This document shows positions 12,086 through 22,203 of a stretch of DNA of 40,058 nucleotides, piece after piece. Origin of the DNA: a virus; the IMG/VR virus record IMGVR_UViG_3300049445_000518, positions 1 to 40,058 of that record; one strand, given 5' to 3'. The translations under genes were made by a program, and so were the position numbers. A model generated the notes under the pieces. That model made no database searches. It saw nothing but the letters and a program-made list of their open reading frames with translations, and had not been told where the DNA came from. The stretch's first letter is position 1, and every line of letters starts with the position of its first letter.

Positions 12086-13837
12086 ATGACCACTGTAATC
12101 GACAAGCGCCGTCGCAGTCGCCGAGCTACGTCCCGCGAGCTGGCCGCGGCAGGTGTCCCCACCCGCGTTGCCTTCTACGTTCGCGTCTCGAGCGAGGAGC
12201 AGACCGAGCGCGCCACGGCCAGGAACCAGGTCGACTTCCTGCAGAAGAAATACCAGGCCAACTTCGATAGCGACTCGCTTGAGCCGATGCAGTTCGTCGG
12301 GCAGTTCGTCGACGATGGCTACAGTGGCGCGCTGGCAATCGACGACCGGCCCGAGGGCAAGCGCTTGCTGGACCTGGTGCGCGCCCACGGCGTCGACGTC
12401 GTCATCTCGTACCGCCTCGACCGCCTTGGCCGACGCCTGGGCGTGCTGCTGGATATCCACGAGGAGTTCGAGCGCTACAACGTCGCCATCCTGAGCGCCA
12501 CCGAGCCGTTCGATACGCGCACCCCGATTGGCCAGTTCGTCTTCCAGCTCCTTGGCTCGATCGCCGAGCTGGAACGCGAAACGATCATCGAGCGCTTCAC
12601 CCTCGGACGCGACCGCAGCGCGCGCGACGGCAAGTTCATCAATGGCCCGGTGCCCATCGGCTACGACCTTCAGGACAATCGACTGGTGCCGTCCGAGCGC
12701 GCGGTCCCCCAGTTGGGCTGCACCGAAGCCGACATGGTCCGCCTGATCTTCGAGCGTGCCGCCGCGGGCGAGAGCGCCGCGTCGCTGACCGTCTGGCTCA
12801 GGGCCAATGGCGTGCCGTCGACCACGCGCTTTATCCGCCGCGACGGAGCCGAGCGCGAGCGCGTCGCCCAGCAATGGAACTCTGCACGCATGCAGGACCT
12901 GATCCACTCGCCGACCTACTACGGCGAGCGCGAGTTGAACTACTCGGGTGCCATCCTGCGCCAGGAAGTCGAGGCCCTGGTCGGCCGCGCGGTGTGGGAG
13001 CGCGCCAATGCCAACGTCAGCGGACGGGTGAGCAAGTTCAACGCCGGCCAGAACGACGGCTACGTGTACCTGCTGTCGGGCAAGCTGTTCTGCTCGGAGT
13101 GCGGCCGCCGCATGCTCGGCAACTACAAGCGCGACCGCGACAGCCTGTACTACGTCTGCTCATCGGCCCGGTCGCCGCGGGGCCGGCGTGGTCCTGATGA
13201 GTGCCATGCCCGACGCAATCACGACGGCGCCGCGCTCGAGGACTTCGTGCTAGAGGCGATCGACGAGTTCGTCGCCAACCCCGACGCTGCCCTCGAGATC
13301 CTGCGCACCCAGGCCCGCGAGCGGCACGGCTTCAGCGTCGACAGCGACGAGCGCGTGAAGGCACTGCGCGTCCGCCTAGCCGAGTACGAACGGGGCAAGG
13401 CCACACTACTAGCGCTCGTACGTCGCGGTAAGTTGAGCCAGGAGGACTACCTGCACGAGATGGATACCGCAGCCGAAGAGGCAACCGCCGTACGCCACGA
13501 ACTGGAGATGCTCGAGGCCGAGCACGCGCTGGGCGGCGTCATCGAGACTCGCCTGCTCAGCTCGGTTGGCCGCTTGCATGAACTACGCGAGCGCTGGCCC
13601 CGAGCACGCGCCGACGGCGACCGTGTCGAACTGCGCACAATGGTGCAGGAGACTCTCCAGGAGATGTACCTGTCGGCCGATGGCGCCGTGCGCATGGTCT
13701 TCGTGTTCTCGGCGCCGGCGTCACGCGAAAACAACCAGCAGCACTACCAGCATCTTTGGCGCGACAATTCAAGCGCTGTCGTGTCGCCCGTCAGTCTCCA
13801 GTTGCTTCGCTCGCTGCCGATCGCGCGACCGGCTTAG
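12086..13837 (+). CDS. int: Large serine integrase
   Basis: 583 residues. The resolvase catalytic domain begins AFYVRVSSEEQ, with Ser35 as the likely nucleophile and Arg33 beside it; DVVISYRLDRLGR and FQLLGSIAELERETIIER are typical of the family. A recombinase domain follows (about 180-300). A zinc ribbon has LFCSECGRRM, then YYVCSS and a later Cys, and a coiled coil (about 400-480) is typical of integrases that need a directionality factor to excise. This shows a temperate lifestyle by attP x attB integration. No excision factor is identified. Promoter control may come from the repressor transcript upstream. Confidence 0.95.
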   Translation: MTTVIDKRRRSRRATSRELAAAGVPTRVAFYVRVSSEEQTERATARNQVDFLQKKYQANFDSDSLEPMQFVGQFVDDGYSGALAIDDRPEGKRLLDLVRAHGVDVVISYRLDRLGRRLGVLLDIHEEFERYNVAILSATEPFDTRTPIGQFVFQLLGSIAELERETIIERFTLGRDRSARDGKFINGPVPIGYDLQDNRLVPSERAVPQLGCTEADMVRLIFERAAAGESAASLTVWLRANGVPSTTRFIRRDGAERERVAQQWNSARMQDLIHSPTYYGERELNYSGAILRQEVEALVGRAVWERANANVSGRVSKFNAGQNDGYVYLLSGKLFCSECGRRMLGNYKRDRDSLYYVCSSARSPRGRRGPDECHARRNHDGAALEDFVLEAIDEFVANPDAALEILRTQARERHGFSVDSDERVKALRVRLAEYERGKATLLALVRRGKLSQEDYLHEMDTAAEEATAVRHELEMLEAEHALGGVIETRLLSSVGRLHELRERWPRARADGDRVELRTMVQETLQEMYLSADGAVRMVFVFSAPASRENNQQHYQHLWRDNSSAVVSPVSLQLLRSLPIARPA

Positions 13838-18184: not shown

Positions 18185-19355
<1,171 letters not shown>

Positions 19356-20126: not shown

Positions 20127-20371
20127 TGGGCCGCTTTCTGCTGGTCGAGCTCGAGCCGGACCTGGCCCGCTTTGGCACGACGCATAACGGCGCTTTTCTA
20201 TCGGTGAAGCACGTCAATGGTGTGCGTTCGGTGTGCGACCTGGCGAGTATCAGCATGGACACGCTGAACACGCTATTGCTGCCCGATGGCGAGGCGTACC
20301 AGCCCGGCCCGAGAAAGCGCGGCGATCGAAACAACATCCGTCGTTACTGGAAAGGCGTGGAGGACTGCTAA
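20126..20371 (+). CDS. Small early hypothetical protein
   Basis: 81 residues from ATG 20126, in a one-base overlap with the PP-loop gene. It starts MGRFLLVELEPDLARFG and ends in a basic stretch (RKRGDRNNIRRYWKG). It has no membrane segment and three scattered features (one Cys near the middle, one at the end, and an LLLPDGEAY loop). It could be a small DNA-associated protein. No family is recognised. Confidence 0.65.
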   Translation: MGRFLLVELEPDLARFGTTHNGAFLSVKHVNGVRSVCDLASISMDTLNTLLLPDGEAYQPGPRKRGDRNNIRRYWKGVEDC

Positions 20372-20375
20372 AAGT

Positions 20376-21401
20376 ATGACCCAATCGTTGGCTCGCGCTG
20401 AGCCCGTCGGCCTGGTGCGATCGGTCTTTGGCGACGACGACCGCATCGCCGTGCTCAAGGAGCAGCTCGCGCGTGGCTGGAAGGAGCCGATGAGCGACGC
20501 CGAACTCGAGCACATCGCCATGCTGTGCCAGCGCACGCGCCTGGACCCACTGGCCAAGCCCGCGCAGATCTACTTCATCAAACGTTACGACTCAAAGCTC
20601 AGCAGAGAGGTGATGACGCCCCAGATCTCCATCGACGGGCTGCGATTGATCGCCCAGCGCTCGCGCAAAGCGTTCCAGCAGGTTGGTCCGCAGTGGACGG
20701 CTGACGGCTCCGCGTGGCTCGATGTGTGGCTGGCGAGTGATCCGCCGGCCGCTGCCCGCGTGGGCATCCGCCAGCGCGGATTTCATGAGCCGACGTGGAG
20801 CGTGGCGACCTGGCGCGAGTGCGCGCAGTACGCCAAGGACTCAAGGGGCAACCGCGTGCTGTCGTCGTTCTGGGCCAGCATGCCGTCGCATATGCTCGCC
20901 AAAGCGGCCGAGGCGCTCGCGCTCAAACGCCAGTTCTCACTGGAGACGAACGACCTGGAGTTGGCTGCCATCGACCAGGAGTGGCGCGAGCAGCAAGCCC
21001 AGCAGGCGCAGCGCTACACCGAGATTTTTGGGGCCGACGAGGACCACTCCGCATACGAGCTTCCCCAACGCACGGTCGACCACGAGACCGGCGAAGTCAT
21101 AGACGCGCAATCACCGGCTCAGGAGCTCACCGGCCCTGAGCGCTCGAGTGCGGTGGCGACGACTCCCCCCGCGACGTCGTCGCCACCGTCCGATTCACCA
21201 ATGGCGGACAAGTACCGTCGCAACCGCGAACTCATCGCGGAGTGTCGCAAGCGCAACATCGCCGGGATGGATCCACTCAAGCTCGGGATGGCGGAGGACG
21301 TGGTCGAAGCCGCCAACCTGGAGTTGGCCGACCGCATCGCGCGCTACGACTTCGAGAACGCCGAGGTGGCGCGACAGAAGGCCAAGGAAGGCCTCAGGTA
21401 A
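20376..21401 (+). CDS. RecT/Bet-type single-strand annealing protein
   Basis: 341 residues from ATG 20376, with GGAGG 13 bp upstream. The N-terminal half follows the Bet/RecT pattern: LKEQLARGWKEPMSDAELEHIAMLCQRTRLDPLAKPAQIYFIKRYDS, then ISIDGLRLIAQRS, then a conserved W-W strand pair and LAKAAEALALKRQF (about 185-198). The C-terminal third is a disordered linker and a charged helix. It anneals single strands in phage recombination. The VRR-NUC gene upstream may supply nuclease function, as no separate RecE or Exo is seen. Confidence 0.88.
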   Translation: MTQSLARAEPVGLVRSVFGDDDRIAVLKEQLARGWKEPMSDAELEHIAMLCQRTRLDPLAKPAQIYFIKRYDSKLSREVMTPQISIDGLRLIAQRSRKAFQQVGPQWTADGSAWLDVWLASDPPAAARVGIRQRGFHEPTWSVATWRECAQYAKDSRGNRVLSSFWASMPSHMLAKAAEALALKRQFSLETNDLELAAIDQEWREQQAQQAQRYTEIFGADEDHSAYELPQRTVDHETGEVIDAQSPAQELTGPERSSAVATTPPATSSPPSDSPMADKYRRNRELIAECRKRNIAGMDPLKLGMAEDVVEAANLELADRIARYDFENAEVARQKAKEGLR

Positions 21402-21429
21402 CGTTTTCGATGTTTCGGTGTAGTTCGTG

Positions 21430-22203
21430 ATGCCGTGGATCGAGTCGCATCAATCACTGGCGCGCCATCGCAAGACGCTGGAAGCGGTAGCCCTGCTCAG
21501 GGTCGATCGGCACAAATTGATCGGTCACCTGCACGAGTTGTGGTGGTGGGGTCTGGATAACGCCGACAGCTCGGGCATGGTCGGGCATGCACCTCCGGAG
21601 GCGCTGGCTGCGGCCGCAGGCTGGCCACTGCGCGACGCGAATCGATTCGTCGAAGCGTTGCGGACGGCAGGCTTTTTAGACCAGACGGAAGACGGGTACG
21701 TGCTCCACGACTGGTATGACTACGCGGGTCGCATGATTCAAAAACGTGCAGCGAACAAACAGCGCATGCAGGACGCACGTGCAGCGAACGTGCAACGCAC
21801 AAACGACGCACGTGCAGGGGCTACCGTACCGGACCTACCGGACCGTACCGTACCCCTAAACCCCCTCTCTGCACAGACCGCGGCTCACGAGGCGTCTGGC
21901 GCTAATGGGGCTGCGCCCCACGCCGACGCCACGCCGCACCAGGACGACGAGAGTCCGCCCCAGACGCTGCGTCCCGGCATGGCCATCTGCCCGCAGTGTC
22001 GCCTGCCGTTCTCAGGCCAGTACATCGACCACACCGCGGAGAAACACAAAGTCAACCCCTCGGCGTCCCCGGGCAATCTCGGCAGTAAGCTTCGCCGCGA
22101 CAGTGAGCCCGAGCCGCCGCCGCCCGACGTCGCCGCCCAGTTCGCCGCCATGCACCAGCGGCTCCAGGATCTCGAGCAGCAAACCGAGGTCAAGTCGTGC
22201 TGA
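21430..22203 (+). CDS. Replication initiator / replisome organiser
   Basis: 257 residues from ATG 21430 (the GTG at 21427 is also possible). The N-terminal 90 residues (MPWIESHQSLARHRKT, HELWWWGLDNADSSG, then EALRTAGFLDQTEDGYVLHDW) match the winged-helix N-terminus of phage replisome organisers. A basic 11-residue repeat (RAANKQRMQDA, then RAANVQRTNDA) follows, encoded by DNA iterons. Later come a Pro-rich linker, a Cys/His group (CPQCRLPFSGQYIDHTAEKH) and a helix that may contact helicase. As in lambda O, the origin may lie inside the gene. Confidence 0.75.
   Translation: MPWIESHQSLARHRKTLEAVALLRVDRHKLIGHLHELWWWGLDNADSSGMVGHAPPEALAAAAGWPLRDANRFVEALRTAGFLDQTEDGYVLHDWYDYAGRMIQKRAANKQRMQDARAANVQRTNDARAGATVPDLPDRTVPLNPLSAQTAAHEASGANGAAPHADATPHQDDESPPQTLRPGMAICPQCRLPFSGQYIDHTAEKHKVNPSASPGNLGSKLRRDSEPEPPPPDVAAQFAAMHQRLQDLEQQTEVKSC
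21744..21860. repeat. Iteron-like repeats, candidate replication origin
   Basis: ACGTGCAGCGAAC occurs at 21744-21756 and 21777-21789, and its first eight bases again at 21810-21817, each exactly 33 bp apart. Then 21822-21855 is a run of TACCG/GGACC words in tandem, followed by a C-rich tract. A 6-bp stem with a 3-base loop (21906-21920) lies just after. Iterons inside an initiator gene are the lambda-type origin layout. Confidence 0.65.

Follow-up and report, generated by a model that had tools for sequence, protein, structure and literature searches.

A candidate replication origin within the initiator gene of a temperate phage, composed of 11-bp iterons and an adjoining short-repeat tract

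Replication origins located inside the gene of their own initiator are an already known kind. In the P335 phages Tuc2009 and TP901-1 the origin was reported in the initiator's own gene: TP901-1 ORF13 and Tuc2009 Rep are stated to bind repeats located within the genes that encode them, and these repeats act as ori (PMC8965321). The oriL of SPP1 lies in gene 38, the replisome organizer gene, which contains direct repeats, and an AT-rich DUE is described there (PMC6316719). In pSK41 the N-terminal winged helix of Rep binds Rep boxes inside rep, where the linker-coding DNA is the ori and the linker encoded by it is dispensable as protein (PMC5703833). The origin of phage lambda consists of 18-bp iterons within the O gene and an AT-rich unwinding region, with no 5-bp array.

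The window, meaning the whole stretch of DNA that was analysed, is a complete virus record of 40,058 bases. It resembles lambda and SPP1 in carrying repeats inside an initiator gene, and Tuc2009 in that 11-bp iterons are followed by a 5-bp array; unlike in lambda and SPP1, an AT-rich unwinding region was not found next to the repeats, neither in the window, where AT content shows no local excess, nor in the majority of the GC-rich relatives. The genes and the protein domain concerned are as follows:

20286-21401, + strand: recT-type single-strand annealing protein gene (RecT PF03837, E=4e-15; phrog_2780, 7.4e-37)
21430-22203, + strand: gene for the phage replication initiation protein, starting at ATG, with GTG at 21427 as a possible alternative start
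21433-21711, + strand: predicted winged-helix N-terminal domain of the initiator, residues 2-94 (AlphaFold2 pLDDT >90 over most of the domain)

The recT gene lies directly upstream of the initiator gene in a replication/recombination module, and the other genes of the window include a serine integrase-type gene (12086-13837) as well as genes for a small winged-helix protein, terminase, lysis and head. Helicase, primase and helicase loader genes were not found among the main ORFs scanned in the window, so that host replication proteins are probably used; lambda, in contrast, has its own helicase loader P. A perfect 13-bp inverted repeat with a 12-nt loop (CGGTGGCGACGAC/GTCGTCGCCACCG) was seen in the 3' part of recT (21151-21188). 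Judging from a DpdA-type gene at 18185-18961 (PF23859, E=7.6e-78), the phage genome likely carries a deazapurine DNA modification.

The initiator protein was matched over its N-terminal domain (residues 2-131) to the profile of phrog_9474, 'replication initiation protein' (E=1.3e-37), and secondly to phrog_13246, 'replisome organizer' (4.5e-10). Homologues start with MAWIESHQ at the position equivalent to the ATG at 21430. In the AlphaFold2 model the winged helix is followed, beyond about residue 94, by a long helix (95-130) and then by a linker predicted to be disordered (pLDDT <50 for residues 146-186), and the repeats fall within the DNA that encodes this helix and the first part of the linker. 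A winged-helix N-terminus, an ori-encoded linker and a separate C-terminal domain likewise make up pSK41 Rep (PMC5703833). RepA_N-type plasmid initiators were ranked best among the structural matches of the winged helix (4pql, 5kbj and 4pt7, Z 6.2-6.6, VIA-align), yet MarR/CRP winged helices score within Z 1 of them, so that the ranking does not stand out from winged helices in general. With Foldseek alone no match at E <0.001 was obtained, and a Pfam scan up to E=0.1 gave none either, RepA_N (PF06970) included; RepA_N initiators also differ in belonging to plasmids, not phages. The winged-helix domain is presumed to be the iteron binder.

No profile match of the window initiator was obtained to the P335 Rep2009/DnaD-like helicase loader families (phrog_5708 and 8489), to which Tuc2009 Rep belongs, and a profile-profile comparison of the phrog_9474 and Rep2009 families aligned a 23-column motif alone, at a probability of 3%. 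The DnaD/DnaB_2 C-terminal domain (PF07261), present in 9/30 relatives, was not found in the window initiator. At residues ~187-212 (21985-22065) the protein has a C-terminal CPQC...H...H module, a possible zinc finger. The same module occurs in the homologous loci L039, L041 and L042, whose N-terminal part differs or does not match; L042 matches the initiator only over residues 178-249, at 64%. By its distribution, it looks like a module swapped in for the DnaD domain.

Within the initiator gene and close to each other, the following elements were delimited:

21744-21820, + strand: iteron array, seven consecutive 11-bp units of type ACRWRCARCGM (read in rows of 11)
21822-21854, + strand: tract of short repeats, [T/G]ACC seven times, spaced 5, 5, 4, 5, 5 and 5 bp apart (candidate opening element)
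21853-21865, + strand: C-rich tract CCCC-TAAA-CCCCC, corresponding in degenerate form to the paired C7-8 tracts of GC-rich relatives
21907-21919, no strand assigned: hairpin GGGGC-TGC-GCCCC (sequence only)

The word ACGTGCA is found in the iteron array at 21744, 21777, 21788 and 21810, i.e. four times in 74 bp, versus 11 times in the whole 40 kb (both strands). The palindrome GCACGTGC lies at 21775 and 21808, and an inverted repeat GTGC-AAC-GCAC at 21790-21800. The original prediction had described three copies of a 33-bp iteron; the starts (21744, 21777 and 21810) were right, three full copies were not, as copy 2 shares 76% identity with copy 1 across the 33 bp, and of a third there are just ~11 bp (2.2 copies by TRF). 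Periodicity was evaluated against a synonymous-codon null, where each codon is randomly swapped for synonyms according to the codon usage of the locus itself, leaving the protein unchanged. With the protein fixed, lags 11 and 22 were significant (p=0.0023) and lag 33 was explained by the protein (p=0.22); the 33-bp unit was accordingly rejected in favour of a basic unit of 11 bp. As three 11-bp units make 33 bp, the 33-bp repeat is an in-frame shadow of the 11-bp repeat, and 15 bp is likewise the in-frame shadow of a 5-bp repeat. The repeats of the window are more degenerate than those in many relatives.

The words of the short-repeat tract are TACC at 21822, 21827, 21836, 21846 and 21851 and GACC at 21832 and 21841, forming the strongest 5-bp array in the window (21/28 matches vs 17/28 for the next best). 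The tandem TACCG/GGACC words that had been pointed out earlier are real by the same null (lags 5 and 10, p=0.0012); as a correction, the tract appears from sequence comparison to be one instance of a general short-repeat array. A C-rich tract and a hairpin had also been named, and both are present, the former not significant in the window itself (p=0.46) and the latter without a demonstrated role. Two C7-C8 runs come immediately after the short array, on its 3' side, in six of the GC-rich relatives (p 0.002-0.044 for each).

For comparison, 36 non-redundant homologous linkers were analysed under the same protein-fixed null. Lags 5, 10, 11, 15, 20 and 22 stood out, with 33 weaker (3/36); at z>3, lag 5 was recovered in 16/36 and lag 11 in 11/36. 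Among other genes (658 windows; rates of 0.5% and 1.1% in control ORFs) such periods were absent, as they were from the winged-helix part of the same genes (0/36 and 1/36). Exact 6-mers were repeated 160 times at spacing 11 and 118 times at spacing 5, where 7.3 and 8.2 were expected. Across the 36 homology-selected loci, the initiator gene represents 9.3% of the DNA and holds 9/10 strong 5-bp and 7/7 strong 11-bp arrays; the sole strong 5-bp array outside it is of (ACAAC)n type, in L020 at ~4670. A clear signal was missing in some homologues, e.g. L016, L022, L031 and L049.

The iteron words vary from phage to phage and recur in all reading frames. In L017 a GGACATCC-type word is repeated at five exact 11-bp steps in frames 2, 1, 0, 2 and 1; the window, L004 and L006 have GCACGTGC or ACGTGCA in common, in more than one frame and with different peptides; and other relatives have words of GGACGTCC, GCTGAC or TGGAATTC type. 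In the 5-bp units (99 units from 13 genes), the core A and C never change, whichever of codon positions 1, 2 and 3 they occupy, whereas the fifth base is variable even where it falls on codon position 1 or 2; this is the reverse of what constraint on the protein would give and argues against recent slippage. It had been proposed that loss of the DNA repeats in homologues that keep the protein repeats would speak against an origin; the opposite was observed, homologues keeping the DNA repeats and changing the peptide. The constraint on the repeats lies in the DNA and not in the protein. That an 11-residue motif was selected in the protein and the DNA merely followed is already contradicted, and we give this explanation almost no credence: it accounts for lag 33 and for the similar 11-mers encoded by copies 1 and 2 (RAANKQRMQDA and RAANVQRTNDA), but leaves lags 11, 22 and 5 unexplained, and homologues retain the DNA words despite changed frames and peptides. 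The Rep2009-type core, found on the other strand with GKVRLGK rather than TVPNRT as its peptide, is equally at odds with it.

IMG/VR was then scanned by DNA pattern alone for (WACCN)5, keeping ORFs of at least 180 aa. Among the matches listed were 60 distinct ORFs, 31 matching phrog_9474 and 23 phrog_8489. The latter group is the family of Tuc2009 Rep, in which the core is on the opposite strand (GGTWN on the coding strand) and encodes GKVRLGKVR versus TVPNRT. The Tuc2009 record carries the annotation 'contains origin of replication', and its rep gave lags 11/22 and then 5/10/20/25 in the same protein-fixed test. Relatives of Tuc2009 Rep chosen by homology (n=21, non-redundant) showed lag 5 in 16/21 and lag 10 in 20/21 at z>3, and lag 11 in 6/21, and their peptides read GKDRIGKD, SIEENRIEEN or RVEESRVEES. 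The rep of TP901-1, with an established in-gene origin, had neither the 11-bp nor the 5-bp period. Lambda O served as positive control, and its iteron spacings of 20/23 were recovered by the lag method.

A (WACCNNN)5 scan was run as a control pattern, and among the matches listed 38/40 ORFs matched a single initiator family, phrog_4118 ('primosomal protein'). Genes of this third family were collected by their linker-peptide pattern and tested with the peptide kept fixed. The 31 genes showed lags 7, 14, 21 and 28 plus 11 and 22, with lag 7 in 27/31, lag 14 in 22/31 and lag 11 in 11/31. In the linkers of L556-L674 and L675-L754, (AACCAWW)n heptamer arrays encoding NHKPITNNQEPIT are combined with 11-bp iterons. 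The iterons were 5' of the short array in all 31 testable genes in which both arrays are strong (5/5, 10/10 and 16/16). The mirrored pattern (CCAWN)5 failed as a negative control, since initiator genes of other PHROGs were also found among the matches listed, implying that the 5-bp word differs between families; CCATC, CCAAT and GGAAT words occur in such genes (L268-L352), encoding IPSHPIPSHP, IQSNPIQSNP or EWNGMEWNG. A period-6 pattern yielded, among the matches listed, mostly generic EPEPEP/QPQPQP proteins. No dominant 5 or 11 period was present in 55 other matched ORFs from genome searches, so the two-period rule is not universal.

These comparisons bear on whether the repeats could be neutral, generated by slippage in a permissive linker and without function. 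The linker is predicted to be disordered, and disordered regions tolerate repeats, but slippage within a gene should favour multiples of 3, and the units seen are 5, 7 and 11; core bases are invariant next to a variable spacer base, and position and order are identical across three families. Neutral repeats are on this evidence very unlikely.

In two families duplex stability drops to a local low at the short array, with more stable DNA on both sides, the effect being modest; for the window itself, stability is lowest at 21845-21860 and in the stretch ahead of the iterons. It is also conceivable, though improbable, that the iterons are an operator, bound by the initiator or another regulator that represses or times its own operon, and that the short tract is incidental, as palindromic iteron words together with a winged-helix protein are just as typical of repressors. 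The sites are nevertheless ~300 bp inside the gene rather than at a promoter, the adjoining short-period array and its low duplex stability would be left unexplained, and Tuc2009 rep, with its reported origin, has the same layout.

It is instead likely, on comparative sequence grounds, that 21744-21865 serves a temperate phage as its replication origin, situated in the linker-coding part of the initiator gene in a lambda-O/RepA_N-like manner. This in-gene origin is well supported by comparison: the repeats are constrained at the DNA level, a predicted winged helix is encoded ahead of them and the architecture matches that of Tuc2009 rep. The lambda-O arrangement of the original prediction is partly supported, its 33-bp iteron and the GC skew proposed as a check excepted. 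The cumulative GC-skew maximum of the whole record, at 21792, falls inside the iteron array, but on a broad plateau and with a sign opposite to that of a classical bidirectional origin, and was rejected as support. Against the origin further stand the missing AT-rich DUE, the degenerate repeats of the window, the lack of either period in TP901-1 rep and the homologues in which no clear signal was seen.

Initiation at such an origin may proceed as follows. The N-terminal winged helix of the initiator would bind the 11-bp-phased iterons, which, at one per helical turn, would all be on one face of the DNA, and oligomerisation of the initiator would strain the DNA. The adjoining short-repeat tract, locally the weakest duplex in relatives, would open and be kept as a regularly spaced single-stranded track for the initiator or a loader, and the host helicase and primase could be loaded there.

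The two-period architecture appears to be undescribed and widespread; no description of the rule or of the short arrays was found in the open-licence literature. On balance we lean, by a small degree, towards a general phage origin grammar inside initiator genes, in which 11-bp-phased iterons would always be followed by a 5- or 7-bp array with an (A/T)ACC-type core, acting as an opening or loading track (functionally like DnaA-trios), on either strand and with freely changing iteron words across three or more initiator families.

To our knowledge, phage origins have rarely been mapped and are usually unpredictable from sequence. Should the rule hold, many temperate phages, uncultured ones included, could have their origin read directly from the initiator gene, and the recogniser of the 5- or 7-base track would become a question testable in a small system, e.g. 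Tuc2009. Odd repeat peptides in many phage proteins would be explained as DNA signals, the linker peptides TVPNRTVPN, GKVRLGKVR, SIEENRIEEN and NHKPITNNQEPIT being, if the grammar is true, shadows of a DNA element.
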